Under the pieces are notes generated by a model. The model was not told the origin of the DNA and ran no database searches. It worked only from the letters and a program-made list of their open reading frames with translations. A stretch of DNA of 64,000 nt from Lutjanus erythropterus (Eukaryota; Chordata; Actinopteri; Lutjaniformes; Lutjanidae). This document shows, piece after piece, positions 5,236 to 60,864 of the stretch (its first letter is position 1; each line of letters starts with the position of its first letter). The translations under genes and the position numbers were made by a program. The stretch covers positions 2,612,646 to 2,676,645 of the forward strand of contig CM034597.1 of assembly GCA_020091685.1 (NCBI GenBank), written 5' to 3'.

Positions 5236-5320
5236 GAGTGTGTTGACTGCTGACTGGCTGTATTGTCTGTTGGGAGGCGGTGAGCGCCATATCAGCATGC
5301 AGCTCAAACTCTATTGGCAG
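5236..5320 (+). CDS. Probable internal exon of an unassigned plus-strand gene
   Basis: This 85-bp segment has near-consensus splice sites: acceptor CTCTCTGCCATCAG before 5236 and donor CAG|GTGAGT after 5320. Only one frame is open. It leaves one leading base to finish a split codon and then 28 codons beginning SVLTADWLYCLLGG and ending HISMQLKLYWQ, with the exon end in phase 0. Composition is more GC-rich than the flanks, and the alternating hydrophobic residues of ISMQLKLYW suggest a beta strand. No family was recognised. It is probably part of the same gene as the segments at 53.6 and 60.8 kb. It falls below usual ORF length cut-offs, so ORF scans would miss it. A chance splice-site pair remains possible. 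Confidence 0.55.
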
Positions 5321-5768
5321 GTGAGTAGGACAGATGGGCGCTCAGTGGACGAGTGTGCGTGTGAATGATTATTGGTTAAAAGAGTTGCCGACTGGGGTCT
5401 TCACCAGCCTATCAATCAGTGCTGTTTAGCAACCTCTGGTTGCTGCATAAGGCCTACTAAAGCATTTATAATGAACCCACAAGGGCAAGCTGTGTCAGTG
5501 TGTGTGTCCATACTCTTGACAATAGACTGGACAGAACCTTAGAAAAGGAACAGTTAAGGGCATGGTTCATGCTGTATATCAGACAGTTTATCTTCACATC
5601 AATACCTGACTCTGGCCTCTGAACTCTCTGACCCTTCCAGTCACTGTGGACAGCAAAAGCAACTGAAGACCTGGTGATAATTCAGGAGTTGATATCAAGT
5701 GACATCAGTTTTCATTCATAGCACATTAGAATTCCTGAAAGACTGTAAAGTAACAAATGTGTTCTCAG

Positions 5769-6375
5769 CAGTGGTGGAAAGAGTACTGGAAATCTGTACT
5801 CAAGTACAAGTACTGTTACATTACTAAAATATTGATTACAAGTAAAAGTACTAGAACCTGAAAAGTTCTCAAGAAAAGGTGCAGAGTATTCATTCATTCA
5901 TTTTCTGTAACCGCTTATTCCATAAGGGTCGCGGTCTGCTGGAGCCTATTTCAGCTGACATTGGGCGAGAGGCGGGGTACACCCTGGACAAGTCGCCAGT
6001 TCATCACTAGGTTCACCCTGGACAAGTCGCTAGTTCATCACATCACAGAGTATTTGTCTCAAAAAATACTCAGAGTAGTTAGTTTTGTTGGTGTTTATTG
6101 CATTATGAATAGGGGTTTGGAGATTGTGAGTAGTTTCCTTAACTGATAGTTGTAAATGTTAACAATCGATTAATCATTTATAAGACACATTTATTTCCTG
6201 ATTTTCAGAATTTGGGGCCTTTTTTGTCTGTTTTTCTTATTTTAAGTTGAGCTTTAAGTTCTCTTATTCAACAAGTAAAAATACAGACTTGAAAATCTAC
6301 TTATAAAAGTACAAGCACCCAAAAAACTACTTAATTACAGTAATGAGTATTTGTAATTAGTTACTTCCACCCCTG
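5769..6375 (+). mobile_element. Non-autonomous hAT-like element with perfect 8-bp target duplication
   Basis: The element starts CAGTGGTGGAAAGAGTACT and ends AGTTACTTCCACCCCTG, so its ends are inverted CAG(T/G)GGTGGAA repeats. GTTCTCAG lies directly before (5761-5768) and directly after (6376-6383), the 8-bp duplication typical of hAT insertions. The interior has the repeated TACTCAAGTACAAGTAC motif and no transposase. A second copy lies at 47977-48768. A younger insertion sits at 5891-6045. Confidence 0.8.
5891..6045 (+). repeat. Short interspersed repeat nested in the hAT-like element
   Basis: It contains CATTTTCTGTAACCGCTTAT, GGGTCGCGGTCTGCTGGAGC and GGCGGGGTACACCCTGGACA, a very common teleost repeat of uncertain class. 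CAGAGTATT flanks it on both sides (5882-5890 and 6046-6054), a 9-bp target duplication. The ACCCTGGACAAGTCGC unit occurs twice in tandem (from about 5981 and 6015). A minus-strand relative lies at 41730-41856. Confidence 0.7.
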
Positions 6376-6477
6376 GTTCTCAGTGTGTCACACCACAGAA
6401 ATATGTGCTGTTAAACTTTTGATCGTCATCAGTCTTGTTGCAGTTTGAATTTGGGTCTGCTCCGTTGTCCCACTCAG

Positions 6478-6498
6478 AAAAAAAAAAAAAAAAAAAAG
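6478..6498. repeat. Poly(A) run
   Basis: An uninterrupted A homopolymer of about 21 bases. No retroelement body is recognised next to it. Confidence 0.9.
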
Positions 6499-7853
6499 AT
6501 TCTTGGCTCTAATAAACATGATGCAATATTTTTAAGTAAAATGTGACGGATATATATGTTTGTTTATGTAAACAAGTAAACATTATGTGAATATGCTCAG
6601 TATAAGCTGAATGTAAATAAGTCAAGTGAAGGTTATTTACTGGATCACATAAAGAAACTGTATGTGTCACACTCCAACACAGTTTATCTCTAAGTTTGCA
6701 TTAAGTTAATTAAATCTAACTGAAGGTACTTGATTTATTCACACTGACTCAACATGATAGAAAACACTGTATTGCAACCATTAACAATAAAATAGAACAT
6801 GAAATACAAAGTCACAGGTTTTTGTGTGCTGACGGTCATGATGGAGACATTATTGGCTTGTTAATGTCAGGTTGTCCTAACAAAGACCTCTAAAACAATG
6901 TCAACTTTGCATTAAAAGTGACATGATTTGACACTAAATGACAACAGTCATAAACCTTCAAGACTCCTTCATGTTCATGCCAGGTATCATGACGTGGTTA
7001 TGTCAGTGTAATAACAGTCTTACGCACAGCCCTTCAAATAAAATGTTGCCATATGTTTTTTTTCTTAGGATTATGAAGCCATAGCTTTTATAAACAACAC
7101 AGAAAAAATATGTTTGCTTTTTTACACTGAAAACTATGCAAACCCTGTAAAAAGGTGAGACTCTTTTCAAGTGTTACTTGTTTGCATGTGAGATGTTGTT
7201 TAGGAGATTAGGCAATTGAAGCTGGTAAAGTGTCAGGTGAAGCTGAAACATTGAAAAGGTTTGAAGTGTTAATTGATGTTTGATCATTTAAAGAGTGACG
7301 GGTGAAAAAAAGATTTCAATACAGCTGTGGGGAAAAAGCTGAAAAAACAACTCAATTAACATTTTTTTTAAGTTGTCAGTTAAATTAGGACAAGCCAATG
7401 AAGGTTTAGTCGAGTTTACTCAACAAAGGATCCAATACAGTAATAACACATATACCATTTACATATGTATTTATTTAAGCCCTCTTACAGTGTATTAAAT
7501 GTTCATGACCTCATTTGAAGATGTTATCTAACCGCCTCTGACCTTTTTCTTAAAGGCTTGATTCAGTGTTTCATTCAGTGTTGTGTTCTTGTTTTATTTT
7601 AGCATTAAAAAACCCCTGAAGCAGCTTCTAAAAAAAGTTCAGCTCTACAAACAAGACAAAAAGTACTTAGAGACATCAGTATTTTTGCAATCCATGAATA
7701 TAAAATTAAAGGTTTCAAAGGAAAAGACAAAAAGAAGAGTAGAATGCTGACCTTAATGAATACTCTTTCAATCCAAAATCAACATCACCATAATTGTCCT
7801 TTTAGTGATGAGTGATGTTTTAAATGTTCTCTCTTCATCTTTCAGACAGAATT
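6499..7853. other. No gene or repeat recognised
   Basis: AT-rich sequence with scattered oligo(A) and oligo(T). Nothing supported on either strand. Confidence 0.4.
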
Positions 7854-8055
7854 TGTGTCTTTAAGGCTAAAAGTGTGCAAACCAAAGCCCTGTGATGAAC
7901 AGAAAATATCAAACAGACTGAATAAGACACAAAACTTCTTCCATCCGTACAGTGTGGAAAAGTGCAGCTCGCTGTTTGGTCTCTTTCCTTCAGAGCTGAG
8001 ATGTTGTTTGAAGCAGAACATTAAGGCGGACATAATTTGTTGTCATCTGGTTTGA
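7854..8055 (+). CDS. Weak candidate terminal exon or chance ORF
   Basis: A good pyrimidine-rich acceptor (CTCTCTTCATCTTTCAG) is followed by an open frame ending in TGA. It includes LRLKVCKPKPCDEQ, NFFHPYSVEKCSSLFGL and LRCCLKQNIKADIICCHLV. It would start in phase 0, matching the end of the 5236-5320 exon, so it could be an alternative last exon. Against this, there is no clear polyadenylation signal until the AATAAATAAATAAA near 8489, no family is recognised, and both strands are open here. Confidence 0.18.
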
Positions 8056-8924
8056 CTGAATTGCTTAATGTGAAAAGTGATGAATGGCCAAAATTAAAAG
8101 TGCTCTGTCCATTTGGCCATCGCTGTAACTTTGTGAAATTACTTCTTCTTGTGAAGACTACAGGGAAATTGAAAAATCCAGGAATGTGGTTCCCAAATCC
8201 TCCTTTGTGTGCCACACCACCTACATCTCTGTATATAAATATTCCTGCTCCAGCCATTATACATTAGGAATAGTAGACATGAGTGTGCTGTAACCATGGT
8301 GACCACTGATAGCACAAAATGAGCCATATGATCAGTAAAATGGTAAATGATAAACTGTGAGAATGTGAGATGCTGTCAGAGTTTTTATAGCTCCTTGGTT
8401 TTAATAGCAGGACTAACAGCTGTGGCTGTGTCATGGAAATGTTGATTTTTATGTTTTATGAATTAATGTGATGATGTACACTGCAAAAAAATAAATAAAT
8501 AAATCAGCAGTACTAAAAAATATAGAAATATTTGTTAGTGTTACATGTACTCTTAGATTACAGTTAAAATTTATTCAGTTGAGTTTTTAATTTAAGTATA
8601 AAAACACATTTCATTTTCAGTAAAATCAATATAGTAATAAATAAAATAGGTTTTTAAAATATTTTTAAATATTTCTGTTTTAGGGACCTTTTCCCCTCAC
8701 TAATTGAAAATTAGAAGTTTAATAAACAAAAAAGAAAATTGCAAGTTACTAGAACCTCTAAACAAAAGTAAATTTTTCACTATGTATGGAAATAATTTTG
8801 GTTTTATAGTGTAGTCTAACTTATAATTAATTTGTATGGTTAGTCCTCCTGAAATCTGGCTATTTCATACATAAACACTATTAATTGTAGCACACACATA
8901 GTTTACATTTAGACAAACAAACAG
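8056..8924. other. No gene seen; AT-rich
   Basis: A TATATAAATATT stretch near 8232 and an AAAT microsatellite near 8487-8503 are the only notable marks. Confidence 0.4.
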
Positions 8925-9520
8925 GCAAATCTGTTGAGCTTGTGTTTTCATTTGCTCTGGCAGATTGGTCCGCCCCCTTTCCATTAAGACAAATTTCCAT
9001 CTTTCTTGGATCTAACTGGTCCAATCACAACAGTTTACTTAATATGAGTCACGTTCTACGACGACTACCAGAGGATTTGAAATGTCACATATTTTGCTGC
9101 TGTGATTGGTTGGAGGTCTATTCAGTTGCATCCAGGCAGCAGATCCATCCAGCGCAACACTTAGCTTGTGGTGTCCGAGGCTCCAGAAATTACATGGGAG
9201 AAATTCTTTGGAAGATTCCACTGCAGAAAGGAAGTAGTTCTGGTAGATTCTGCTGTAGACAGAAAGTAGTTCCTGCAAGAAACTGCTTACAACAAGGTCT
9301 GTGGATTATCTTGAGTAACCAGGTTATGATTCCTGAAAAGAGAAATCACTGTTGAATTTTTCAAATGTATTTTTATTGACTTTGAGCTCCGCAAGCTGAG
9401 TGCCATTATATTGGTGAGATGGCAGACATCTCTACAGCTGACATCTGCAAAACTCTGCAATTCACTCCAGAACTATGTAGATGGATGAATAACACTACAG
9501 GTCAGAGGAAAAATATGTAT
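8925..9520 (+). mobile_element. Teleost miniature element copy
   Basis: From about 9270 the text reads AAACTGCTTACAACAAGGTC, GTAACCAGGTTATGATTCCT, GAGCTCCGCAAGCTGAGTGC and GATGGCAGACATCTCTACAG, a common fish repeat. A second copy of this part lies at 59140-59350, and what looks like the opposite end of the family lies at 14856. The left part includes TTTTCATTTGCTCTGGCAGA, a motif seen again near 13010. The longest open frame here (8942-9355) is not a gene. Confidence 0.5.
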
Positions 9521-10129
9521 TTTTGATTAATTGTGAACATGAAATAATCAACTGGCTGCTGTCATTGCTAACAACTAGCTACTTGGGACCATGCTCTTTC
9601 AAAAGCAATCATTCCAAATGTTTGAGTTGAGTGAAACAAGATGGCAGATTTACAAGACTCAGCTAGAATGCAGCATCTGTGGTCTCTGTCTTCATCTGTT
9701 CTTGAATGTACTGTAGTGAGTGATGGAGAATGAGCTCTGCCCAGCACGCTGTTCAGTGGTGTAACAGTTAATAGAGGTCCCCTCTTGATACATTACACAG
9801 TGTGTGCTTCTCGTTGGCTTGATATTGTGAAGTCTTCAAATTAATTTCAGATATTTTTCCTTTGTATCTCTGGTGGAGTTTATTTCAGACAATCAACGCT
9901 GATGTTGATTTTGATTGATGTGAGTAAGAGCATAATTAGTAGCATGACGTGTGTATTTAAGTTTCCATAGCCACACCTTAGTTTGAGAAGAAAGCATTGT
10001 TACGCTTGTGGCAATGTTACAGTTGTACTGGTTCTCCCATGAAAACACTGTACCTGAGTCTGTATGACGTTCTCTATCTATATGTGACATAGAACATACT
10101 CTACACGTGTAGGCTACCCCAGAGGATTA

Positions 10130-10905
10130 CTGGTACCTGTGAGTGTGGATTGTGATATGGTCATTGTATTTCTACACTTGGTTATGTTTTGTCATTTAGT
10201 GAATTTTACCACCATCTATTGGATTACAAGATGTATGGTATTTATTCCGTCAAGGCTGACACGCCAGATGTTTGTTACACAGAACCATGTGGAAGGTCAT
10301 TCTTAGAAACTTTTGGAAAAGGGCAAGCACTTTGAAAAAACACTTGACAAGTAATCAGGCGGGCTAACACCAATCAGATCAAGCTCTTGCAGAAGCCGGT
10401 CGGGAAAAGAGCAAAACCATCATTTCGATGGAGAAAAGCCTTCAGTGTCATTCTTTGTTCTTCTTTCAGTGAAGACATCCTCTCCAGTTCTGATATAACT
10501 GATGCTATCACAGTATCTACGCTAATCTCTTCAGGAGCCGCCATTGTTTGTCACTTCCATGGATGCTTGTCATTGTCGCCACACCTCAAAACCACACCCA
10601 GAACTGCCAGTAATCCCTCCAAGGATGCTGGCTGGCTGCACCACTTTTGGTGTAGACACAAATGGATCATTGGAAAGCCCGGCAAGACAGATTCTATTGT
10701 GATCTCACAAATCTATCTGCCTCACAAGATAACAAATGCCCTACCTCGCAATGCAATAAAAAATGATATGTGTATCTGCCTTGTGTTTGGGATCCACTCC
10801 AGAATTTAATGGGTTCTTCCTTGGCCCGTGCTACACCCTTCAACCAAGTTTCACGAAATTGCGCCAGTAGTTTTTCCATAATCCTGCGGACAAACAGAGA
10901 AACAG
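10130..10905 (+). mobile_element. Degraded non-autonomous repeat
   Basis: It contains CTTTTGGAAAAGGGCAAGCA, CACCAATCAGATCAAGCTCT, GCTGCACCACTTTTGGTG, TGGATCATTGGAAAGCC and CAGTAGTTTTTCCATAATCC, all segments of a repeat found many times in perch-like fish genomes (recall). The 140-codon open frame at 10387-10809 runs along it and matches no protein. Confidence 0.45.
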
Positions 10906-11110
10906 ATAGCACTGAAAACACAGCCTCCTTGGCAGAAGTGGGAAATATGTCCAGGAGAACTCAAGAGCAATACACCGGCTAAGGGTGAAGTCAATCAGAT
11001 CAACTGTTGTTGAGAAAATTGAAGGACAGACAGAAACTCCCTCCATTTGAGTTATATTGATAGGTGCAGCTTTAAGCTTTTTATTTCTTGGAGGGTTTAT
11101 GGATACTTAC

Positions 11111-11175
11111 CCTGAGTTGCTGTCAATGTGCTGATTCCAACAGTATGTGTTTTCCAGACTGACTGATTTATGACT
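11111..11175 (-). CDS. Speculative minus-strand exon
   Basis: On the minus strand an acceptor ending ACTTCTTTTCAG precedes a 65-bp segment that ends at a GTAAGTATCC donor. Two of three frames are open; one begins SHKSVSLENTYCWNQ. The splice sites are strong, but short decoys like this are expected in 128 kb of searched strand, and there is no protein match. It could equally be a non-coding RNA exon or chance. Confidence 0.15.
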
Positions 11176-12350
11176 CTGAAAAGAAGTAAAATGCAGTAAT
11201 CAGGCACTTGGGATAAACTTTGCTACAACAGCTTTTGGCATCAGCCTCACTCAGCACAGTTCCAAAGTCAGCCTGTGCAGGGGACTGGGGGAGTGGTACA
11301 GTGTGTTTTTGGATGTGACAATTTTTTTTTTTTTTTTTTGAGGGACTAAAGCCACCATTTTTGGCAGCAAGTCAGAGGTATACCTGCCTTGAGAAAAGAA
11401 GTAAAAGGAAATCCTCAATGTCAGAACTCAAGTTCAGACCCTTTTCATGCTGTGTTTTTTTCTTCCACCTCTTGTTTAGCTTTTTTCCTTTTTTCCTCTG
11501 TGTACCTGAGGACAGGGGAGGGAGATGGCTTCAGCTCCGAGGACAACATGAAGGCCCTCCTCGATGCTTCCACCTGGCACAATGCCCTCCCTTTGTGTTC
11601 ACCACTGTTTTAAGGATACACACCCCTCTGTGTGCGGATGCGTGTGTTTTCACCATCCAAGCTTGGCCATTTGCATTTGCTTGATGTGAGATAAGTGCGA
11701 GGAGAGGTTTCAGTACACAGCACATCAAGAGACTTCTGGTTTCCGCTCTTCCCTTGCCCCCCCCCCTTCTCCAACCCAAGTGGCTTTCAAGATGCAGCGT
11801 GTATGTGTGGGCGCAATGCGCACATTCTGTTTGAGGGCTCTTTAGCTTAAAAAAGCTTGAGCCAAGGAAGCCTCTTCTTCTATCCCACCACCACCACCAT
11901 TACCACCAAAAATCATCCTTTTCTCTGCCCTCTGCCTCAGATTTCATTTCACTGTGAAGAAGAACAACGAGATATGGTTCTGCATGAAGCTGAGCCCTCT
12001 TTCACTTAGAACCACTCTACTGTATCCTTCTCTGTTTCCTTTGTGTCATCTTGCAGAGATGAAGCATCTATTTCAACATCAGGGAAAAAAAATGCATTTT
12101 TTCACAAATGTTTTATCTCTGCCTAAATGCTTTCTCACACTCAAGTTTAGTTTGCTGACATTTTTTTGCACTCGTCACAAAAGAGAAAACACAAAGACAC
12201 ATATGCATATGTGCAATTCCCCAAGGGATGGGCAATACCACAGAACTTAACTCTGGTTGGTTAGAACATCAGGAACTGATGCTTTAAAGAACATTAATAT
12301 TTCAAAGGAAGCTACTGCTACATACAGTACCAAGACAGTATTATAGTGTG
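11176..12350. other. No gene seen; poly(T) and pyrimidine-rich tracts
   Basis: A poly(T) run lies at about 11322-11339, with C/T-rich patches at 11740-11775 and 11870-11940. The several overlapping open frames here follow from the skewed composition. Confidence 0.4.
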
Positions 12351-12354
12351 TGAC

Positions 12355-12690
12355 CAGGCTTGGGGAGTAATGGATTACATGTGACAGGATTATGTAATAT
12401 CTTCAGGCTAAACACCTACATGACTCTGCTATAATAAACCACTTGAAGTTTTTTAATAGGGAAAACAACACAAACAGATAACTTGAAGCCTGGCAAGATG
12501 GATTCTCGCATTATCTCGTGAATCTAACTATCCTCCAAAATCACTTGTAGCACCTTAAAGCATTTCCTTGCGAGGTTGGTAAAGTTAATTATTGAGTCTC
12601 ATTCCCACATCGTCAAATAACACAACCTGGAAATGGGACTCAACAATTAACTATCTTTCTCCAGGATCACTTGTAGCACCTTTAGAAATA
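12355..12690 (+). repeat. hAT-type end fragment plus repeat scrap
   Basis: CAGGCTTGGGGAGTAATGGA at 12355 is the same kind of terminus as at 20131 and, inverted, at 38325. About 80 bases later CTGGCAAGATGGATTCTCGC begins a stretch related to part of the 10130-10905 repeat. Here CACTTGTAGCACCTT occurs twice (about 12541 and 12667). Confidence 0.35.
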
Positions 12691-15992: not shown

Positions 15993-16589
15993 CCATTAGT
16001 CTGTTATCAGACCTTTATTTTGAAAGGGGTGAGTGCAGTGTTCTGTGGTAATGGAAATGAACTGTTTGTTATTCTGACTTTCTTCACTCAATGCTGTACA
16101 TCCATGTTGTATATGTTGTTCTTCTACTCCCACTGTGACTGTTACATGCCCAAGTTTTGGGCTCCACAGCTAGGATCCCTTTAAGAATCAGGCAAACTAC
16201 TTCATTGTCCTCTTTTCTTAACTCTTTTGAAAACTTCTTTATATAGAATGGCTTTTAACTAAATTGTCTCTTTGTCTGATGCCTCTATTCTGTTCTAGTT
16301 CACTTAATGTCTTTTATCTTTGTTTATTTCTTCATGTTGATATTACTCTGTTGTGTAAGTACATTGTGCATTTTTGTTGTTATGCTTTTGAAGCACTTCA
16401 TAAACCAGTTTTTTTAGAGTGATATATAAAATAAATATTATTATGATGAGGACATAACAGGAACAAGTGTTCATGTAAATAAAGTGAAGTTTCCTACAGA
16501 CAAGGACATCAGCCAAGCAGAGGAGACCTTATACTGAGGCAGCACTCTGCCTCCACAGGTGTGTTTCAAGTCCAAATTTGAATGTTCCA

Positions 16590-23990: not shown

Positions 23991-23992
<2 letters not shown>

Positions 23993-30590: not shown

Positions 30591-30870
30591 TAAAAGGAAG
30601 CATATATGTTGTAGATATCTACTATAGAAGCCTTTTAAAGGCCTTAAGATGTTAAAGAAGAGATGAAAGTTTCACTCTGACTTGGATCATAAATAACAGT
30701 CAGCATCACAGTGGGAGCTGTAAAGTTCACTGTTCACATTAAATGTTAATGCATGGGCCACGCTACAATCAGCAGAGATGCTTTCCCTTTGGCAAGTCAA
30801 CATGCTTGACTCTGAAATACATTCAGATCCAATCCTGACTTGTGTTTCTCACCATCCTCATTCACTCCTC

Positions 30871-31047
30871 TCAGACCCCAGAGGAGGACACGTCCTCTGC
30901 AAGACCACCGTCTGGCTGTCTGCTCTACCCAAACATTTCCTCATCACCCTGACCTTACGGAGGGCAGAGGAAGGCCTTATCTACAAGAAGATATACTCCA
31001 GGATGGTCCTCTCCTCTAAGTTTGTGTACATTATGTGTTGTGTTTAA
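30871..31047 (+). CDS. Weak candidate exon or ORF
   Basis: A good acceptor (CATTCACTCCTCTCAG) precedes GC-richer sequence with a frame reading PRGGHVLCKTTVWLSALPKH, FLITLTLRRAEEGLIYKK and IYSRMVLSSK before a TAA. Codons look protein-like. However, a second frame is also nearly open, no good donor or polyadenylation signal follows, and I recognise no family. A terminal exon of another transcript or a pseudo-exon is possible. Confidence 0.22.
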   Translation, partial: SDPRGGHVLCKTTVWLSALPKHFLITLTLRRAEEGLIYKKIYSRMVLSSKFVYIMCCV

Positions 31048-32480: not shown

Positions 32481-33199
32481 CAGATAAATATTTTCCACCA
32501 TCAGTTGAAATTTGAATAATAAATGCCAAATGCAAGACGGTGGGTCGCGCATCTGTGTTCTCCGCTGCTCTCCACGCAGCAACATTTGGGAATATATCCA
32601 CGTTGCACAGACTGTCTCCTTGGGCACTCTCTGTTTTGGTTTATGTATGTGTAAAGGGCTGGGTGCAGGTGAATATAGATCAGCAGGTGTTGTGATGATT
32701 AAATACTCTCTAACCAGTCACACCTCTGGTCTCAGAGCTCTGAAACAGCTGAGCCAGTCACAGTTAAACATAATGACAGCTCAGCAAATGAAAAGCCTCA
32801 CCTCAGGAAATGTCTGGATGGTTCAGAGCATCACAACATGAACACACATCAACACAAATCTGTACCCGAAGACAGATGGAGTCTAACTTTCCATCAGGTA
32901 GTTATAACAACAATAGAAATTAAAAATAAAGAAAGTGAAGTGACTGGTGGCTCCTGGCTTCAGCTGGCACTGATGGAGGTGCATCAGGCAGAAATACTCA
33001 GGAGGCAGATCCATCTGTCTTTACATCTGGTGATGATTACATTGGATGGAGGCTATTTTAGAAATAATTCTAATATTTTCTATAATTTTTCACCTGTTCA
33101 TGGTCAGATTGTTTAGCAGTTAATGTTACACAGCTGTATTTCACACACAGAGAATGGTCCGAAAAAGATAAAATATCCAGTGAGTGGCAGTTCTCTGGG
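32481..33199. other. No gene seen
   Basis: Two modest open frames (32512-32841 and 32838-33116) abut but match nothing recognised and have no splice or start context. Confidence 0.3.
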
Positions 33200-33570
33200 C
33201 GTGTAGACACGTCACAAAGCTCAAATCATCTCAAACTGGTTTCTTGAACGTGACAATAAGTTCATTGTACTCCAGTGTACTCCACAGTCACCAGATCTCA
33301 GTCTACTAGAGCACCTTTGGGATGAGGTGGAACGGGAGATTCACATCATGGATGTGCATCCGACAAATCTGCAGCAACTGCATGATGCTACCATGTCAAT
33401 ATGGACCAAAATCTCTGAGGAACGTTTCCAGAATCTTGTTGAAGCTGTGCCACAAAGAATTAAGGCAGTTATGAAGGCAAAAGTGGGTCCAACCTGGTAC
33501 GAGCAAGGTGTACCTAATGAAGTGGCTGGTGAGTGTTTGTTATCAGTAGGTATCGTTACTTTTGGATTTT
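33200..33570 (+). pseudogene. 3' end of a Tc1-like transposase
   Basis: The frame gives LLEHLWDEVEREIHIMDVHP, TNLQQLHDATMSIWTKISEE and RIKAVMKAKVGPTWYEQG. This is the C-terminal third of a Tc1 transposase. The glutamate codon at 33309-33311, in EHLWD, is the third residue of the DDE/DD34E catalytic triad. The two aspartates and the DNA-binding domain are missing, and the sequence upstream is out of frame, so it cannot make an active enzyme. The apparent 81-codon ORF from 33327 is only an internal methionine. Confidence 0.8.
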
Positions 33571-33574
33571 AAAT

Positions 33575-34700: not shown

Positions 34701-36660
34701 ATTCTAAAGAGTTTTCAGTGTCATGAAGGTGGCTCTCTTTAAACCTGGCTAGATCACCATGGTAACTGATGCTGATCTCACAACCTGGTCTGGAGAAGGA
34801 TTAAATCGTCCATAAAAAGTGCCGAAGTTCTTTATGAGCGAAATACATTATAAACTGAGAGAAGACATTAAAAATGAAAAGTTGCTGAGCTGTACGTTCA
34901 TGTCACAAAACAAAGCCGTATAATGTAGAAATGTAACAGGATGTAACAGCAGCACAGACTGTCTGCATCACGCTGTCATGGTAACCTCCGTTTGGTGATG
35001 CAGAGACCTTTTTCCCGTTTGCTTCAGATCATATTAACACTTTAACATTACACATTACATCATCCACACACTAAAATAATGATGAAGCGACCACATTTGA
35101 ACACGATTTACTATTTAAAGTGAGTTTTGCATTGCTGATACTGCAGCTCAGAACTCTGATTAGAAAATATCAGTCTATCCTATCTATCATGGAAAATCAT
35201 CAGTTACACCAATTTCACTTTGATTTTCCCAAAACCTTAAGTGCTGTATGAAGTTTATCTGTTTAATGTGCAGTTGTCATGTTAGAAATAAACAGCAGCA
35301 TTAAGGTCACAATTCAGTTAATGAGTAATTTTCAGCAGTATTCTTCTTCTCCTGCATTATTTGCAACAAATGTTGCTTTTTGCTGTAATATATTTTTTAT
35401 ATTTTCCACAGCTCTTCATTATAACAACTTGATCATTTTGACTGAAGTGGGCGGCTCATGATCGCCTCACTTTGTGTCGAGGAAGAGTCAAATGATGCAG
35501 CAAATGCCCGTTTTCGAGTCTGAAGAAGAAAGCCTGAGTTAACAAAACAAGTTGATAACCACCGCCGTGATATCTGTTATCTCTGACTGGGGGTTTAGGT
35601 TTTGTCAAGCAGCTCATGCAAAGAAAGTCTGGCTTTGTTGAGCTTCCTTTGTATTACAGCCCTCTGATTGGCTTGCTTGATTTCTTTCATATAAATATAT
35701 AATGACGGTGAGTTTGAGGAATGTGTGATAGCTTGTGTCCCCGACCCTGCACCCCCATCAGGTGAAGATTTGAATATTCGTGGGTAATTCTCACTGAAGC
35801 TTCGAAGCCCCAAAAATGGTATTCGGGACAGTGCTAAACCAAACATTTACAAGGCCAAATTTTCAAGCAGGCTGTAGATGTATCACCCCACAACTGCACC
35901 CACCTCACAAAACATGTGCTATGCAGCCACACCTCATTACCCCCTTTTCTTTAGGGAGAAAGCAGTTTAGTGGGTCAGAGCTAATCTGGTTGTGGTTAAT
36001 GGGGCTGTCCGTCCAAAAAGCAAGCAAGAATGAGTAAAAGGAAGCGGGCAAAAGATCCATGCTATTGTATTTACCCAGTATGGAGGAGAATGGCCAGGCT
36101 AACATTTGTGTGTGTGTGAGAGTGTGTGTTTGTGGTGGCTTTGTAGCGCACTGCCTGCTGGCGTGTTGATTTCTATTGAGTCTGTAGTATTAGAAGTCAT
36201 CAGTCTCTTACATGGCCTCCAGCTCACAGGGGTTAACAATGGCAGGAATGTCTGTGTTCAGTATGCTCCTGGCGAGGCTTATGTGAGCTGCCACTGGAAT
36301 CAAAATCATCTCCAAATATATCAGAGGCAGAAAAGAGCATGGACATATTTTACTCAATTAGAGTCCTGCTACTGAGCCTTCAGTGGAATTTCAACTAGGT
36401 AAAAACTAGCTCATTAAAAATAAGTTTATTTTCAGACTCGGATCAGTGAGGTTTTTATGAACGTTCCATAAATATAAACAGGTCGATAGAGAAACAGGAC
36501 TCGCATAACTGGCATAAGAGGTGAAACCAAGAATGTTTCCTGGTGAGACAGATTTGATGAAATAAATGAGAGTAAGTAGAATGGAAATAAACTGAATGTT
36601 GAGCAGATACGTAAACAGCTGGAACCAGAACAGGTACACACTCTGAGAAATCAAGGTGCT
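34701..36660. other. No gene; mostly unique-looking sequence
   Basis: CACCATGGTAACTGATGCTG near 34753 is a repeat scrap. Sequence at 35850-36370 is repeat-poor and of balanced composition. It includes AGCTAATCTGGTTGTGGTTA and could be conserved non-coding DNA, but that needs alignment. Confidence 0.3.
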
Positions 36661-43092: not shown

Positions 43093-43096
43093 TTAA

Positions 43097-47960: not shown

Positions 47961-47976
47961 AAAAAACAACAAAAAA

Positions 47977-48942: not shown

Positions 48943-48959
48943 GCGAGTACATGATCCCC

Positions 48960-49970: not shown

Positions 49971-50390
49971 GCAAAAGATCTAAGCTGTAACATGAATAAA
50001 GCTGAGGTCCAAAGTTTGATTTTGAAAGCAAAGTAGTAGTAGTAAATAGTAAATATAGCATTTTGATAAATGAATCTTTGTATAACAGGTGGTGGTAAAA
50101 TATAGCAGTAGATTTTTCAGTTATCTGTACTTCACTTGAGTATTTATTTTTTTGACAACTTTTTACTTCTACTCCCTACATTTGAACACGAACATCTGTA
50201 CTTTCCATACATTTTCAAAACAGGCTCATTACTTTATTCTTGATGCATTTGAAGGAAATTATTGATTGTTTATATATCATCATGCGCTGCTGATTTCAGC
50301 CTAAATGGATGCAACAATAACACATAGAAAGGACGATTCCTAGATGCATCCATCAACATAGGACAGACGTAACAAAACTAAAATAAAAAT

Positions 50391-51029
50391 GTTGGAAAAC
50401 TCCCCTATACTGTGACTGGCTGTTAAGCAACTCCCCTGTATTGTTATTGGCTGTTGGAAAACTCCCCTGTATTGTGACTGGCTGTTGGAAAACTCCAATG
50501 TGCTGTGATTGGCTGTTAGAAAAAACACCTGTGCTGTGATTGGCTGTTAGAAAATGGTCCTGTAATGTGATTGGCTGTCGGAAAACTCCTCTGTGCTCTG
50601 ATTGGCTATTGGAAAACCTCCCTTGCTGTGATTTGTTGATGTAAGGTCCCTCTGTATTGTGATTGGCTGTTGGAAAATCCTCCTCTTTTGTCATTGGCTG
50701 TTAGGAAACTCCCCTGTCCTCTGATTGGCTGTTGGAAAACTCCCGTGTTGTGATTTGCTGTTAGAAAACCACCCTGTGCTGTGATTGGGTGTTTTAAAAA
50801 CCCCTTGCATGGTGATTGGCTGTTGGAAATCTCTCCTGTATTCGGATTGGGTGTTGGAAAATCTCCCTGTATTGTGATTGAATGTTGAAAAGTCCCCCGG
50901 TATTGTGATTGGCTGTCGCAAAAAAACATCTATTGGCTGTTGGAAAATTTCCCTGTATTGGATGTTGGAAAACTCCTGTGCTGTGATTGGCTGTTAGAAA
51001 AAGGTCCTGTACTGTGATTGGCTGTTCGA
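50391..51029. repeat. Minisatellite with an ATTGG (inverted CCAAT) motif in most units
   Basis: About 21 diverged tandem units of roughly 30 bp with consensus near GGAAAACTCCCCTGT then GCTGTGATTGGCTGTT. Most units keep GATTGGCTG, the reverse complement of a CCAAT box. Minus-strand open frames across it (50353-50694, 50606-50929, 50794-51258) read QPITIQG/NSQSQYRG-type repeats and are products of the array. Confidence 0.9.
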
Positions 51030-52456: not shown

Positions 52457-52883
52457 TATGGAAGCCCAAGTCCTCCAACACAAGAAAAAAAAAAGCACGG
52501 TAAATTATAATTATAAACTGAAAATCAAAATTATGAGATAGAAAGTCATAAATATGGGGTAAAAAAAATCTGAAATTATGAGATAAAAAGTTGAAATTAT
52601 TAGATAAAAAGTCATAATTCTGAGATAAGTCATTCTGAGATAATATGTCAAAATGATTATTATATAACTATGACTTTTTATCCTGTAATTTCAACTTTTT
52701 CATCTCAAAATTGACTTTGTATCTCATTATATCTACTTTTTAACTCTTGTGACTTCTTAATCTCATAATCATGACTTTTCTCATAGTTTCCACTTTTTAA
52801 TCTCATCATTTTTCATCATTTCTATTTCATAATTTTTACCATGGCAACATTTTTTCTTTCACTGGTGAAAATGAGCTTCCATA
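52457..52883. mobile_element. Fold-back miniature element
   Basis: Left end TATGGAAGCCCAA and inverted right end TATGGAAGCTCATTTTCACC pair. The interior has GAAATTATGAGATAAAAAGT words on the left and ACTTTTTATCCTGTAATTTC / TTAATCTCATAATCATGAC words on the right, so most of the 427 bp can fold on itself. A partial copy is at 19000-19120. Confidence 0.65.
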
Positions 52884-53455
52884 GTACTGAGACTGAAAAC
52901 AGTAAAGTTGTCAGTCATGGAACAGAACTGGGTTCATCACTATAAGCAGAACCTCTCATAATATTAATGTTTACCACCGTCAGTATTTAGTGTTTGAATA
53001 ATAACATATGCTGCTAACATGAAAATGTGCATTAAACACAGCGTACAGCTGCTTGGTCTGTAAAGCTAACATTAGCTGTTAGTCTTACCTATAAAAGTTT
53101 CTTTAAGTTAGATGTTGAGACACACACTTTCAACTTTGCGACTGTCAGATTAGCTGGTTTCACTGAGACCAGAGTGGTGTTAAGACGTGAGGCATTGTAA
53201 CGTGTGAACATTGTGCATGGTAATATATCATTCTTTATTTTAAAATGTATTTGAAAACTGTAATCCTGCTAAATAAGATCCATTTTTACTCAATGTAGCT
53301 GTAATCTGACTGTCTTGCTTTCCTTTAACTGTAATGTGTCATTTGATGCTTCAAAGTTAGTCCCCAATCCTGTGCACAGCCAACCGTCTGAATGTCCTCC
53401 AATGAGCAGTGACATCTGTGTGTATGATGTTTCTGTCCAATCAGTGGACCCGGGT

Positions 53456-53479
53456 CTGTGTGTGTGTGTGTGTGTGTGC
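53456..53479. repeat. GT microsatellite
   Basis: Eleven to twelve GT units, about 110 bases upstream of the exon at 53587/53615. Confidence 0.9.
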
Positions 53480-53614
53480 TTGCATCACTTATGCTTGTAA
53501 CTCTCCTCACATTCTCATCCATCATGAACTCGCAGCACCTCTAACCTGTACCGTATGTGTTCTGCACATTGTGTTCCCTCCCCCAGGCAGGTGTGTGTGT
53601 GTATGTGCGTTCAG

Positions 53615-53760
53615 GTCTGATGGAGCGGCTTCAGTATGGCAGCCTGCTGGTTAAATCGGGCGACCGCAGAGAGAACAACCCCGCACTGCTTTACTGCCAG
53701 GCTCAGCTCGCCACCGCTCCCTACCTGCTGCAGATCAGCACGCAGCAGGAGAACACGCTG
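53615..53760 (+). CDS. Probable internal exon of an unassigned plus-strand gene
   Basis: A markedly GC-rich segment in AT-rich surroundings, open in one frame: LMERLQYGSLLVKSGD, RRENNPALLYCQAQLATAPY and LLQISTQQENTL, ending in phase 0 at a CTG|GTGAGC donor. Two acceptors are possible. The one ending TGCGTTCAG at 53614 leaves two bases to finish a codon. The one ending TTCCCTCCCCCAG at 53586 has a better pyrimidine tract and gives a phase-0 exon of 174 bp that would also encode AGVCVYVRSG from GT-rich sequence. The phase-0 version would splice directly to the exon at 5236-5320. The donor phase fits the next candidate at 60751. Family not recognised. This is the strongest coding signal in the window. 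Confidence 0.7.
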
Positions 53761-54239
53761 GTGAGCAGCTGTACAGTCTGTGTGTAGGAGGGTAATGACT
53801 GAATGTTTCTGTGGTAGCTTGTCAGCGTGTGTGAGTGTTTCTGTGTATTTGTATCTGTATGAGATCCAGTGTAAGCCAGGATTAATATAAAGTGTATTTG
53901 TATAGTTACTGTACTGCCACAGTGTAAGTAACAGATTACATTTACTCTTGCCAACTCTACCGATTTTCCCAGGGGATTATTTTTTTGTCCTGGGATCACA
54001 ATTATCTTGTATTTCTCAAGAATTCCCACATTGTAAGGAACTTTTTAAACGAAAATGTCATGCATTTTGTCACATCCATTTTCTTTTAAGGACAGGAACA
54101 AAAAATGGAATAATCAAACTGATAAATATTTGTTTATGCCAGATAGTTACTCAAGTTCACACTAGTGGGATGAATTATTCTGTATTCTTTCAAGAGAATT
54201 AAAAGTAAAATTTAAAGTATTCAACATAAACATGCTGTA

Positions 54240-54620
54240 GAACTGCAAGATTAATTGCTAACTGATAATTGATTATTCACTCTGAGTGTTTTTTTAAAAG
54301 AAAAAAGTCACTTAAATATGATTGTTTTCTGCTTTCCTTACTCCTCTGTAACACTGCACTGAATATCTCTGAGTTGTGGACAAAACAAGACATTTGAAGA
54401 CGTCATGTTGGGCTTTGGGAAACACTGATCAACTTTTTTCAACATTGTCAGACATTTTATGGATCAAACAATTAATCATTTAATTCAGAAAATGATCAAC
54501 AGATCGATCAATAATGAAAATAATGGTTACAGGAAAGACTTGAGAAATACATGTGTGTGCTCCAGTACGTTTGGACCTCAAGTGACAAGATTGTGACAGG
54601 ATTAATTAATGGATTCACTG
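54240..54620 (+). repeat. AT-rich interspersed repeat, same family as 21260-21740
   Basis: CTTTCCTTACTCCTCTGTAA, CACTGAATATCTCTGAG, ACATTTTATGGATCAAACAA and CAATAATGAAAATAATGG parallel 21370-21690. Confidence 0.55.
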
Positions 54621-55364
54621 AGAAAATGCTCATAATCATTGTCCTTTAAAAGTCTCCTAATCCCTATTTTTGAGGTCTCAAGGTTTCGCAAGTACAGTCA
54701 TGTTCTTATACTGTTATACTGTACATGTTGAGAATTTTTAAAAATATGTCATTTTACTTTTACTGACCCTCTTCACAATGTAATCATTAAACTGGACTAC
54801 ATAGCATCAATGGTGATTTCATTTTAGTATCGATACAATACTTTTTCTCACATCACTTGTAAGTAAGCTGAGTGCTACCTACTGACAATACGCTGCAGCA
54901 CAAGAGCAGGTAACTGTGGCAAAAGCGGTGCTTTCTCACAATAGCACAATAGGGTGGGACTCTTTCAGGTGCTTCCTGGAAATATTCCTGAACATATTGC
55001 CAGAGCAGACCAAACATATAAATCATAAACACAGTTTGAAATATATAAGTGCAAGTGGGATTAATGGTGTGGTCTCTCTCAGTGTGTCATTATGTGTGTG
55101 TGTGGTGACAGTAAGGCCCCAATTTGACAAACCAGGAATTCTCTTTAAATTAAGGTCAGGTTTTGGTTAAGAGTTACTCAGTTTAGACTGTGTGTGTATG
55201 TGTGTGTGTGCCAGGATGGCCTCCAGTGTAGCATCATCAAGGAACACTTTTAGCAGCATAGTAGCAACAGAGAGCGAGAACTAGGCTGGCTTGTTTTAAT
55301 AAAGTCTTGAATTATGCACGGCAATAAGCAGAGCCTGGACTTGAATATTTATGAAGTGAGGAGA

Positions 55365-55404
<40 letters not shown>

Positions 55405-56098
55405 GAATCAGAAAGCAGAGGCTGGCCCTCTTTCTGTCCTCTGTTTGTGTGTGTTTGTACGTGTGAGCAAAAGTGTGTAATGAGTGGGAGTGTGTGTGTT
55501 TGTGTGCGGTGATGAGAAACAATAAGAAAGGAATGAGAGGAACCGTGTGTGTGAACGTGAAGAACAAGTGTGCTATTATGTGTGTGTGAAATGAGCACTT
55601 GAGCAGGGGAGAAATTAAGAGTGAGAGTGAGAGTGTGTGTTAGGGAGAGAGTGACTTAGTGTGGAGCACTGTAAGTGTAGTAGTCTGGTTAGTTTGGATA
55701 TACTGCAGCGAGGATCACTGAGTGAAACCTAATTAAACAATATAGTGTAGCACATTCAAGACAGGCATGAATCTTTAGGAACCAAATGTCCCACTAAATA
55801 TTATAATACGTATACATCATCACCAGAAGTAGTAATAAAACTCTTATTAACACTACAACAGCCAAGTTAGTCATTTTGACCCTTTTCAAATTTATATGCG
55901 CAATAATTTGTTGAATTAAAAAACACAATGCTGCTGGTACCAGACTTTGTGTGTGGTGGGTGTGTATGTATACATTAGACAAAGAAAATGTGATCACCAC
56001 TGTTATATTGTTACTTTTTTCACAGTTAGAGATGCATCGTGGTTGCATAGCAACTATAATTATATTGTATGTGTTGTATTGTATATATAATTAGAGGC
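54621..56098. other. No gene; GT-rich and GA-rich stretches
   Basis: Contains a GA microsatellite (55362-55405) and GTGTGTGT-rich patches at 55080-55220 and 55440-55650. The open frames at 55296-55598 are formed by these repeats. Confidence 0.4.
55362..55405. repeat. GA microsatellite
   Basis: About 20 GA units with one AA interruption. Confidence 0.9.
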
Positions 56099-56270
56099 AG
56101 GGGAGACCAGGGATGGTTGTAACACCTTTTGTCTCAGCACCTACAACTCATGGAATTTTTGTGTTAAAGCTCTCAAATGTTGAAACAAAGTACCCTTACT
56201 TATTACAAACAGCAATGTTTACAACGTTTTTTGGTTTTATTTTTGTACTCGTTTCCAGCCTTTTTTCATA
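56099..56270 (+). repeat. Repeat copy, inverted partner at 63731-63902
   Basis: Begins AGGGGAGACCAGGGATGGTT and runs 172 bp to TTTTTTCAT. The minus strand of 63731-63902 is the same length and about nine bases in ten identical by eye, including ATGTTGAAACAAAGTA and CTTACTTATTACAAACAGCA. One sharp boundary is at the AGGGGAGACC end. Confidence 0.75.
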
Positions 56271-56904
56271 GGCTATGATTGTTTTTTGTGATGGTTGTAG
56301 GGGGACAGTTGTTTATTATTAATGTTAAAATAACATGTTTACATTTTGGTGTTTTTTTCATTTTTTAAAAAGATAAACTATTAGAATAAATGCATTAATC
56401 TCTTAGTCTGGTATTTATCATGGCAGATGATAGAGTTTGGAAGTCAAAGGTCAAAATGAAGCTTATGGCTGTTCTAGTTATGGAATTCTGACACCTCTAG
56501 TGTTAATTTACTGCATGACTGAAAGTATATGTGATTTGCATGACATGGCTTGTCTTAAACCAATTTCATTCCATTACAAATACTTTAAACAGTTCAAAAT
56601 TAGGTTCACCAAAATGGAACAGGGCCACCTCCATGTTGGCAGAAAAGGCTGAAACTTGGGCCATAACATGACGTTGCTGGGACGTCCCGTTGAGAAACAT
56701 CTTTAAAGCTAGAGTAGGTAATTTAATTTAGAGGCATAATGTTAGCTACACAGACAAATGCTCACATCAACTACACAGACCAACCACCAACTCTGGCTTA
56801 ACAGAGGAACTGCTGATGTTAGCTACACAGACCAACCTGCAACTTTAGCTACACAGAGCAACTGCTAATATTAAGGGGTAATCCAAAAGTAATCAAGTTC
56901 CATT

Positions 56905-56976
56905 ACTGACTGTATTTTTTAACAAGTGATTAGTATCTTTATAGGAATACATTTTTATGTAACCCTTCCAACCCTG
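56905..56976 (-). repeat. hAT-type end fragment
   Basis: Ends TGTAACCCTTCCAACCCTG, inverted CAGGGTTGGAAGGGTTAC, the same kind of terminus as the element starting at 37545. Confidence 0.45.
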
Positions 56977-57780
56977 GTGACACACAGTCATGATGTGAAA
57001 ACAACACCAGCCACACACTGTCACGGCTGCTAATTACAGTAGCTAATGTAACACTGAGGAAATACAGTGTTTTGGTCATCTAACTGTAAAGGAAGGAATC
57101 TCTGTCTGTCTTGTGTTTATGTCCTTCACATATATCAAGAACTGTCACCACTACCACTGCACTAGTGTTTTTAATTCAAATTTCATAAATCAAACATTGA
57201 TTAAATTAAATCAAAAGTGAATGAGGGAAAATTATTAGTGTTCCATTGCCATTGTGGGCTTTTTAAAGTTCTATCCATTTATTCTCTACTGCCTTGCCAA
57301 ATTCATGGTCTTTCTCAGTGTTTAATGGTGGTGGTCTGGGAAGTGATCCAGATTTCTAAACTCTCTTTCCGTCACCAGAGTTCATGACCATAGATGAGAG
57401 TCAGAAAGTAAATCCACTGGTTTTTCAAAGTTGATGCCAGTAATTTTTATAGTGAAGCTGCTAAGTTTTTACATTATTTAGAAAATTTAAATTGGACCAT
57501 TTTTTTAAACTGAAAAAACTTAATACTTGCACATCTCTGTTTCCTCACAATTATATTTTTGCTCAGGTCAAACAGCCAGAAGGTCGCCAACTTCCCTACA
57601 CCACTCTTTAAAAAGTAAAAGCAGCTGGACCAAGAAAACCTATTCCTCTTTCTTTCCTTTCCTCTGCCGCCCACTTTCCTTTCCTTCATTTATTTTCCAC
57701 CCCTGTCCTCTGCTTCGACTTCCTATCCGTCTCTCTTTAGATCCATTCCCCACCCACCCTCAGCCTTAGGAACCATTTCC
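56977..57780. other. No gene seen
   Basis: AT-rich, with a TTCATGACCATAGATGAGAG repeat scrap near 57380 and a C/T-rich patch at 57640-57780. Confidence 0.35.
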
Positions 57781-57789
57781 CGCCCTGCC

Positions 57790-58190
57790 CTTTTCTCTGT
57801 GACTCTGAAGATAGCGCAGGAAGTTAATTTTCATGTAAGTGGACTCTTTGCCGCTTCAAGTGTTGCTGTTCAGGCCTCAAGCACATCCTGGCCAGCCTTA
57901 TTTATCCTAGCAGTGGGTAGCTCCATGGCTAGGATGTCAATTAATGACACACTCCACTGGTGCAAGGAGAGAAAGTGTGCAGAGGTTTCCATCTAATAGC
58001 AGACATCTTGTTTCCCGCCGGCCAAAGTTCTCCCAGAGTCCCGTTGGGGCTCTCAGAGGAGTTATCAGTTAATAGTATTAACTGTGGAGGGCACAGTGAT
58101 GGTGGACCTTGTCATTTAGAATGTAATTTACAGCTCCGTTTCAAGAAATACATGACTGTGAGACATTCCCCATGTAATCTACAACTGTAA
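57790..58190. promoter_or_regulatory. Repeat-poor block, possible conserved non-coding element
   Basis: Balanced composition and no recognised repeat. AT-hook-like cores such as GTCAATTAATGACA and AGTTAATAGTATTAACTG (both self-complementary) resemble homeodomain sites. Function is an inference only. Confidence 0.25.
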
Positions 58191-58219
58191 TGTTTGTTTT
58201 GTTTACTTTCTTTCTGCAG

Positions 58220-59090
58220 TAGAATCTACTAGAACTGCTACTTTAGGATTGACCAGAACTATTTTAGAATCTACGGGAAAAATGCTAAAATCTACAGGAA
58301 AAACATTATAATCTACCAGAAGTACTTTAAAATCTACCACACCTACTTTAGAATCTAGCAGAACTACTTTAGAAGCCACCAGAAAAAACATTAGTTTCTA
58401 TCAAAAGTACTTTGGAATCTAACAGAACAACTTTAGAATCTAATGGAACTACTTTAGAAACTATGAGAAAAACATTCGAATCTACCAGAAGTACTTTAAA
58501 ATCTACCACACCTACTTTAGAATCTAACAGAACTACTTTAGAATCTATGAGGGAAAAAATTAGAATCTATGGAACTACTTTAGACTCTATTGGAAAAACA
58601 TTAGAATCTACCAGAACTACTTTAGAATCTAACAGAATCTAACGGAACTACCTTAGAGTCTATGGGAAAAACATTAGAATCTACCGGAACTACTTTAGAA
58701 TCTACGCAAAAAACATTAGAATCTACCAGAACTACTTTAGAATCTATGGGAAAAACATTAGAATCTATGGGACAAACATTAGAATCTACAAGAACAACTT
58801 TAGAATATATGCAAAAAACATTAGAATCTATAGAACTACTTTAGACTGTATGGGAAAAACATTAGAATCTACCAGAACTACATTAGTATCTACCAGAACT
58901 ACTTTAGAATCTATGGGGGAAAACAATAGAATCTATAGAACTACTTTAGAATCTATGGGAAAAACATTAGAATCTACCAGAACTACTTTAGAATCTAATG
59001 GAACTACTTTAGAATCTATAGGGAAAACATTAGAATCTATAGAACTACTTTAGACTCTATGGGAAAAACATTACAATCTACCAGAACTAT
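58220..59090. repeat. 21-bp-period minisatellite with long open frames
   Basis: About 41 units of 21 bp in two main forms, TTAGAATCTACCAGAACTAC-T and TTAGAATCTATGGGAAAAAC-A. Because 21 is divisible by three, each plus-strand frame repeats a seven-residue unit: LESTRTT or LESMGKT. Open stretches of 76, 60 and 67 codons result (58412-58642, 58662-58844, 58850-59053), separated by one-base slips. There is no start context, splice support or composition to suggest a protein. Confidence 0.9.
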
Positions 59091-59111
59091 TTTCTTTGTA
59101 ATACAAAGAAA
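59091..59111. repeat. Perfect short palindrome at the minisatellite edge
   Basis: TTTCTTTGTA (59091-59100), one base, then TACAAAGAAA (59102-59111). Ten-bp arms, directly at the right boundary of the 21-bp array. Confidence 0.85.
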
Positions 59112-59350
59112 TTTTCTACGAGAAACAAAATAGTTCTGACATGAAACTGCTCACAGCAAGGTCTGTGGTTTGTCCTGAGTTACCAGGTCATGATTTCTTG
59201 AAAGAGACATTCCTTTTGAATTGTTCAAACTGATTTTTTTGGTGCTTTGAGCACCACAAGCCGAGTTCCATTTAGTCTCATTATATTAGACAGAAGACAG
59301 ACATCTCTGCGGCTGATATCTCCAAAACTATGCAGCCCAAAACTCTGCAG
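59112..59350 (+). mobile_element. Miniature element copy, same family as 8925-9520
   Basis: AAACTGCTCACAGCAAGGTC, GAGTTACCAGGTCATGATTT, GTGCTTTGAGCACCACAAGC and AGACAGACATCTCTGCGG parallel 9270-9450. Confidence 0.55.
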
Positions 59351-59395
59351 TATTTTTGATTTTGGGGGTAAACTTTTTTAAAAGAAATGCCAGGG

Positions 59396-59560
59396 TGCCC
59401 TGATGGCTCAGTTGGTACAGTGTGTGCTCTATGTACTGAGATAAGTGTCTGCAACAGCTGTGTGTTCGTCTCCCATCTATGACCCTTTGCTGCATGCCAT
59501 CACCCCATTCTCTCTCCTGCTTCCCCACTGTATCTATAGCTGTCCTATCTATACAAAAAA
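59396..59560 (+). repeat. tRNA-derived SINE
   Basis: GCCCTGATGGCTCAGTTGG holds an RNA polymerase III A box (TGGCTCAGTTGG, 59404-59415). A decayed B box lies near GTGTTCGTCTC (59462-59472). The tail GACCCTTTGCTGCATGCCAT then CTCTCTCCTGCTTCCC and TGTCCTATCTATACAAAAA fits a common fish SINE (recall). It is not a functional tRNA gene. Confidence 0.75.
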
Positions 59561-59619
59561 AATCCACCAAATATCTCCATGACTTATTTTTACATATGTA
59601 TTTTTATCAAATAGATTAA

Positions 59620-59720
59620 AGATTCGAGATTCAAGACTTTATTGTCATTGTGCAGGCATAACAAAATTGCAGTTGCATCCTTAAATGGTGCTTGTAGTCA
59701 CACATATTTATAAATTGAGA
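59620..59720 (-). repeat. Retroelement 3'-tail-like sequence
   Basis: GATTCAAGACTTTATTGTCA followed by TTGTGCAGGCATAACAAAAT is, in reverse, a widespread fish retroelement tail (recall). Confidence 0.45.
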
Positions 59721-60750
59721 TTTACACATATTTACAAAGAATAAATAGAGATAAGATGCAGTGTGGCAGGTATGGACTAATAGTCAGTGTAAAGTTAGAT
59801 GCTTCCTGTCACAGTCAGACAGTAGACTGACAAAGTTGGTGTTAAACTCTTATTAACTTATTCAGGATCCTGCAACCAGAATATTAACTAAAAGCAAAGG
59901 GTATGAACACATTGTTCCCATTTCATCCTCTTGTTCTTGGCTCCTAGTAAAAGAAAAATTATTTTTAAATCTATGAATGCCTTTTCTCTTTCCTTTTTCA
60001 TTGACATGCTCACTGAAGACATGCTGGACACCTGACAAATCTGTTAGATCATCAAGTAAAGGTCTCCTCACTAAGCATAGAATGTGCTGTTGGGATCTGG
60101 TCACTATTCACTTCCATTGTTTGGGAGATTCTGCAACACTCTTTTCCTGTGAAACTCCAGCAGTGTTTTGTGGACTAAAAAACTAAACGTGACCTTCAAT
60201 CAGCATAAGGATTAGCAGATGATGACTGAATTTTTGGGTGAACTATCCCTTAAATAAATGCAAACAAGGCAGGGCACTTCGTCCCTCATAGCAGAATGTG
60301 TATGTGTGGAGCCAGACCTTTCTCCAGCTCTGAGTGCTGTGGGCAGAGGTCTGGCTGTGCGAGACAATTATGCAAAATAAAGTTTGAGGGGCATGCAAAT
60401 TCTGGGAGTTCCTCTGCAGAAAGAACAAAATGGGAGTGCACTGGGAGATGACCTTGAAATACAGGAGAAACCTGGGAAAAAAAACATCCTGATCTCAGAT
60501 TTGAGGTCAGTTCATTCCACTGTAAGCTTTATAATTACAACATATTTCGTTTTATTCAGAAACCTTCCCTCAGTGTGCGTTAATGTCAATAATGATGCTT
60601 CATGATGCTTTTCCACACATAATGCAACAAAGTCATGGCACTGCAGTCAGTGAGTCTTTCTTCATGTGTACCATAGAGAGGTCGAGTTCTTTTTAATGTG
60701 CTTGTTTTGTAAAGTGTTCAGCGACGTTCAAGAACAGGTGCATTTTTCAG
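59721..60750. other. Intron-like sequence; one miniature-element end
   Basis: TTTTTGGGTGAACTATCCCT at 60232-60251, followed by TTAAA, is the right end of a TTAA-type element. CCAGACCTTTCTCCAGCTCT and AGGTCTGGCTGTGCGAGAC (60313-60365) form a partial hairpin from another repeat. Confidence 0.4.
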
Positions 60751-60864
60751 GGAACAAAAACCAAGGGCAACTCCCTCATGGTGACTCTGACATTCAATAA
60801 AGCCGAGGAAAGACACCTTGAGAGTCATGCACTCTGGATGGTGTTGTTAGGTTGTAATGCCCAG
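60751..60864 (+). CDS. Probable internal exon of an unassigned plus-strand gene
   Basis: A 114-bp segment, exactly 38 codons, lies between an acceptor ending CATTTTTCAG and a CAG|GTCAGT donor. The frame reads GTKTKGNSLMVTLTFNKAEE then RHLESHALWMVLLGCNAQ. Phase is 0 at both ends, so it follows the 53615-53760 exon directly, giving QQENTL then GTKTKGNS. The peptide has strand-like alternation (LMVTLTF) and a plausible helix (ESHALWMVLL). It is below usual ORF length cut-offs. I do not recognise the protein. Conservation or RNA data are lacking, so chance cannot be fully excluded. Confidence 0.55.

Follow-up and report, generated by a model that had tools for sequence, protein, structure and literature searches.

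A spata16 locus in a fish genome, probably decaying, with a false exon in one of its introns

The closest described relative of the gene studied here is SPATA16 (NYD-SP12). An excerpt of one study describes the mammalian protein as carrying a TPR domain and as located at the Golgi and in proacrosomal vesicles; mouse SPATA16 is testis-specific there, and deletion of exon 4 blocks spermatid maturation, with acrosome formation looking normal (PMC5666888). According to the same excerpt, human exon 4 ends at codon 283, and R283 at this end is a globozoospermia site (PMC5666888). For fish, excerpts of the respective papers state that the sperm of most teleosts lack an acrosome, which is present in sturgeon (PMC12530800), that Slo3 appears to have degenerated in many teleosts (PMC5337896), and that CatSper losses occurred in fish (PMC2572835). 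In the accessible part of a survey of 69 fertilisation genes, a set that may or may not include SPATA16, no teleost pseudogene is reported (PMC3434135). No report of spata16 decay in fish was found among the listings and abstract openings of the open-licence literature, and this absence of earlier reports is weak evidence that such decay is new. The gene itself is already known, and what may be novel is its probable erosion. Taken as a whole, our reading is that the locus described below is this known gene, that one of three exons proposed for it is false, and that the gene is probably decaying; we give this reading a probability of about 0.6.

The window, that is, the whole stretch of 64,000 nucleotides analysed here, corresponds to C7:2612646-2676645 of a 938-Mb genome. 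An initial annotation had proposed that three short segments in it are successive exons of one plus-strand gene that could not be placed. The coordinates, AG and GT dinucleotides and open frames of the three segments (Table 1) were all confirmed, as was the compatibility of their phases, and phase compatibility is weak evidence for exons. Segment 1 consists of an AG, one base plus 28 codons, and then GTGAGT. Segment 2 has three possible acceptors, one at 53587 (phase 0) and two at 53591 and 53615 (each leaving two bases that complete a codon), and its donor follows CTG with GTGAGC. At the thresholds set by segments 1 and 2 themselves, nothing like them was detected on either strand of the window or in 20 dinucleotide shuffles, and the two segments are therefore more than chance.

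A profile search of the peptides had been suggested along with the proposal. When the peptides of the three segments were joined and submitted to a Pfam scan, the sole family matched was PF15015 (NYD-SP12_N), with 44.9 bits against a cut-off of 29.2, so that the gene said to be unplaceable can be assigned to spata16. Segments 1 and 2 matched this family in the proposed order, each also when taken alone (profile 280-307, E 9.8e-5, and profile 449-500, E 4.3e-6), while segment 3 gave no match by itself and was also absent among the genome matches. Joining segments 1 and 2 with a further piece at 30875 raised the score to 57.2 bits. The peptides had no match in PDB and none in NCBIfam.

PF15015 was also searched against the whole genome. 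Five of the six matches lay on the plus strand of C7, in family order (profile 141-203, 277-308 for segment 1, 350-400, 448-500 for segment 2, and 499-528), and the sixth, on C11 with an E of 8.3, was taken for chance. Single exons scored 15 to 23 bits; the curated cut-off of 29.2 bits was passed only by joined exons and by none of the six matches in the 938-Mb genome, as is expected for single exons. The search thus found one spata16 locus and no second copy in the genome; the locus extends at least over C7:2515254-2677829 on the plus strand, with five recognisable exons spread over 163 kb.

Table 1. Features of the locus. Positions given without C7 are on the scale of the window, negative ones lying before its start.
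Feature	Position	Strand	Remarks
PF15015 141-203 match	C7:2515235-2515423	+	genome search
Exon-4 remnant	-62249 to -62138	+	aligned to human 253-283 with a frameshift
Segment 1, assigned as spata16 exon	5236..5320	+	human residues 284-311; PF15015 280-307
spata16 exon remnant	30875..31005	+	PF15015 350-400; acceptor at 30875 putative; not in the initial annotation
Segment 2, assigned as spata16 exon	53587..53760	+	human residues ~453-502; PF15015 448-500
Low-copy duplicated stretch holding segment 3	59576..61064	.	at least two copies
Segment 3, slice of the duplicated stretch	60751..60864	+	no PF15015 match; frame-broken second copy
Exon following segment 2	65101-65184	+	17/28 identical to human; 1.1 kb beyond the window
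PF15015 499-528 match	C7:2677746-2677835 (exon at 65101)	+	genome search
spata16 exons beyond the window	-97391 and 65101	+	starts of the exon matched at PF15015 141-203 and of the exon following segment 2; missed by the initial annotation

The same five places were recovered by tblastn with human SPATA16 in 264 kb of C7, together with a weak sixth corresponding to exon 4. The human query aligns to the PF15015 profile over its full 564 positions (1-564) with 1191 bits, a sign of a good sequence. Identities, counted without gaps against this human sequence, range from 33% to 61% among the recognised exons: 17/40 at -97350 to -97231, 14/28 in segment 1, 14/42 in the remnant at 30875, and 22/50 in segment 2, for which tblastn gave an E of 7e-6 in the 264 kb. 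Since human exon 4 ends at codon 283, segment 1 should be exon 5. On these likenesses, the gene of segments 1 and 2 is almost certainly spata16, and the locus appears, by its family identity, to be the fish orthologue of SPATA16. Segments 1 and 2 thus hold as ordered exons of one plus-strand gene; given their short length and the distance between them, an ORF scan would miss them. Human SPATA16 has nlgn1 and ect2 as neighbours; a tblastn search of 294 kb, using ECT2 and a part of NLGN1 as queries, gave zero matches at E 0.1.

The view that all three segments belong, as exons, to a single unassigned gene has to be weighed at this point, and we regard it as extremely improbable. Their phases are compatible, and segment 3 (AG, 38 codons, GTCAGT) has a fair donor and a fair coding score; none of the 20 dinucleotide shuffles yielded its like at its own thresholds, which counts in its favour. 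Over 528 kb of strand, the window and 200 kb of flanks being read on both strands, six other candidates like it were detected, segments 2 and 3 left out: two came from the window's minus strand and four from one strand of one flank. For the bare pattern of an AG, exactly 38 open codons and a GT, the window has 38 instances on its plus strand and 33 on its minus strand. Moreover, the acceptor of segment 3 is poor, with a score of about 0 versus 8 for segment 1. The segments are also not consecutive as had been proposed: about 140 positions of the profile are absent between segments 1 and 2, and segment 2 joins directly to the exon at 65101. Segment 2 ends with QQENTL and the exon at 65101 begins with LQALL, both in phase 0; the two together align gap-free to human QQEAEL-LQSLM, so that segment 3, if it were an exon, would be a 38-residue insert at this junction.

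Segment 3 instead proved to be part of a duplication. A genome search with 60701-60914 returned the query itself and C7:949976-950173, 81% identical, copy counts of this kind being lower bounds. The similarity to the second copy covers 60488-61064 (79% identical), with further duplicated pieces at 60368-60470, 59790-60084, and 59576-59621, and thus extends beyond both ends of segment 3. Identity is 92 of 114 columns inside the segment, 124/150 upstream, and 118/152 downstream; as the inside resembles the flanks, the supposed exon shows no extra conservation. Within segment 3, the second copy has one 3-base and one 1-base gap and a stop in the frame of the segment. We therefore reject segment 3 as an exon with high confidence, given the lack of a family match, the broken frame of the duplicate and the continuation of segment 2 into 65101: it is a piece of duplicated DNA lying in the intron that separates segment 2 from the exon at 65101. 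The proposal of three exons of one gene stands for the first two segments, which match PF15015, and falls for the third.

Several repeats and unrelated loci were seen along the way. Two fragments, at -61073 to -60910 and at 16077-16128, are 77% and 87% identical, respectively, to another part of the region holding the second copy of segment 3; judged by these identities, they appear to belong to a dispersed repeat family. The first lies close to the exon-4 remnant and was not counted with the duplicate of segment 3. A minisatellite with a 21-base unit lies at 58220-59093, with about 20 copies per row, and it contains long repetitive open frames, for example 58373-58642 and 58643-59053, because 21 is a multiple of 3. 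Another, with a 31-base unit and about 21 copies, lies at 50390-51026. The broken open frames at 32703-33572 presumably resemble a Tc1-type transposase. On the minus strand at -54794 to -58567, in the intron between exons 4 and 5, there are open frames of 607 and 650 aa, which we take to resemble retroelement proteins. A run of plus-strand open frames at 1508-2590 (1508-1891, 1929-2180, 2184-2447) looks like what is left of a coding repeat or of a retrocopy and had no Pfam match. Elsewhere in the genome, the 19 globin exon matches found include clusters at C19:11102230-11142866 (13) and C20:10565123-10576508 (3); the match at C19:11134369-11134578 contains a TAA and may be a pseudogene. A beta-globin exon of the genome has its best PDB matches in chains 1xq5, 6rp5, 4esa, 2aa1 and 6hit, haemoglobins of perch-like, cod and Antarctic fishes, in agreement with the teleost origin supposed in the initial annotation.

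We then consider the state of the gene. Counterparts of human residues 204-252, 312-360, and 404-452 were absent from tblastn, from profile scans of most of the part inside the window, and from the genome search. Profile scanning, in which X stood for stops, extended over the plus strand from 5321 to 52590-52871 and over some 9.7 kb on the upstream side of segment 1; for the final 0.7-1 kb ahead of segment 2, coverage comes from tblastn and the genome search only. The best scores for the three pieces between their neighbouring exons were 38, 31, and 36, and controls of equal size reached 38, 40, and 37. A look-alike of human 407-446 at 35093-35209 (score 36) was rejected, as its score stays below the 37 attained by controls and the frame opened by the nearest strong acceptor, at 35028, meets a stop first. 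Candidate exons were also proposed by splice and codon scoring, using rough vertebrate tables, and none was adopted on that evidence. At the two ends of the protein, human residues 1-146 and about the last 40 had no counterpart found by tblastn, the recovery simulation described below having covered internal pieces.

Two exon remnants also carry defects. The exon-4 remnant aligns with a score of 50, but only when a frameshift is allowed; 300 stretches drawn at random from the region score no higher than 30. In tblastn the match is weak (E 3.2 in the 264-kb search, 0.019 in a search with the piece). Read in its own frame, the first half of the remnant, LNPSHFQRHLQQA (human LNPAYFRNHLRQA), runs to a stop shortly after exon 5 begins. 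The alternative frame, which does connect with exon 5, reads QAAK-SVLTADW (human EAAR-SAMIADY) and is stop-free, and the first half then yields other residues. The remnant begins with a GT microsatellite and is 10 bases shorter than the human exon over codons 270-282, and in the joining frame the counterpart of human R283 would be a lysine. Possibly the shift is an assembly error in this one genome rather than a real frameshift. The remnant at 30875 was first seen as 30853-31005 in the frame scan with stops read as X. The likely exon start is the acceptor at 30875, although the peptide scores higher when residues upstream of it are included (25.0 bits versus 21.0), which counts against this start. 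No good donor follows: the best nearby GT is no better than 46% of the 4028 GTs of the window, while the donors of the remaining five exons are in the top 5%.

An intact TPR-coding region in one frame was accordingly not found, the counterpart of 204-252 being absent and the exon-4 remnant needing a frameshift; nor was a full coding set with usable splice sites, as 312-360 and 404-452 were not found and no good donor follows the 30875 piece. These features suggest that this copy of spata16 has probably decayed to non-function. Counting against decay are about 200 codons over five exons without a stop, with splice sites that are mostly good.

It could be argued from these open codons that spata16 is a working, fast-evolving gene, whose missing exons have diverged or are split, whose exon-4 shift is an artefact or is spliced around, and whose exon at 30875 uses an unusual donor. 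The identities of the recognised exons span 33% to 61%, so some exons may be lower still, and in simulations without gaps or split exons 65-82% of pieces at 25% identity were recovered and 18-35% missed. An excerpt of a gonad transcriptome study of Spinibarbus hollandi also names spata16 in that fish (PMC9817534). At 35% identity, however, 95-98% of the simulated pieces were recovered (300 trials, again without gaps or split exons), and yet three pieces are absent, their best scores do not exceed the controls, and exon 4 and the exon at 30875 add two more defects. A working gene is thus possible but unlikely. A shortened protein might still be made, for instance if translation began at an ATG that the exon-4 remnant has in its 3' half, in frame with exon 5, the frame GRMQGEPCQAAK-SVLTADW being open through exon 5; this seems very unlikely, as the downstream pieces and a donor after 30875 are absent. 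Decay is therefore the reading that we retain.

Loss of the acrosome offers a conceivable cause. As teleost sperm mostly lack this structure, constraint on spata16 may have been relaxed, and under relaxed constraint exons could have been lost or shifted out of frame. We see about an even chance that spata16, which mammals need to form sperm, has ceased to work in a percomorph-like teleost lineage and stands half eroded, which would fit a need for it that was relaxed with the loss of the acrosome. If functional, a fish spata16 would most likely take part in Golgi traffic or in the shaping of spermatids. A transcript of the present copy would be without several stretches that the family conserves, and in it the first half of exon 4 would be read out of frame; judging from the sequence, this copy most likely does little or nothing.

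If the decay is true, spata16 would join the sperm genes known to be lost in fish, and fish would offer a natural test of what SPATA16 is for, the acrosome or, more generally, sperm formation. Human globozoospermia suggests a role in the acrosome, and the mouse exon 4 deletion a general one, as far as the excerpt goes (PMC5666888). Loss in fish without an acrosome but retention in sturgeons would favour the former. A word of caution also follows for annotation, as one of three phase-compatible short exons chosen by eye was no exon of the gene.

Compared with human SPATA16, no counterparts of residues 204-252, 312-360, 404-452, the first 146, and about the last 40 were found in the fish copy, and its exon 4 is out of frame. 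It resembles mammalian SPATA16 (NYD-SP12), the globozoospermia gene, in having five exons in family order on one strand, and segment 1 starts at the codon and in the phase expected from the end of human exon 4 at codon 283 (as given in the excerpt, PMC5666888). The losses of Slo3 and CatSper in fish concern other genes, and the present case comes from one genome and from sequence alone; what they have in common is that, in each, a mammalian male-fertility gene looks degenerate in a teleost.
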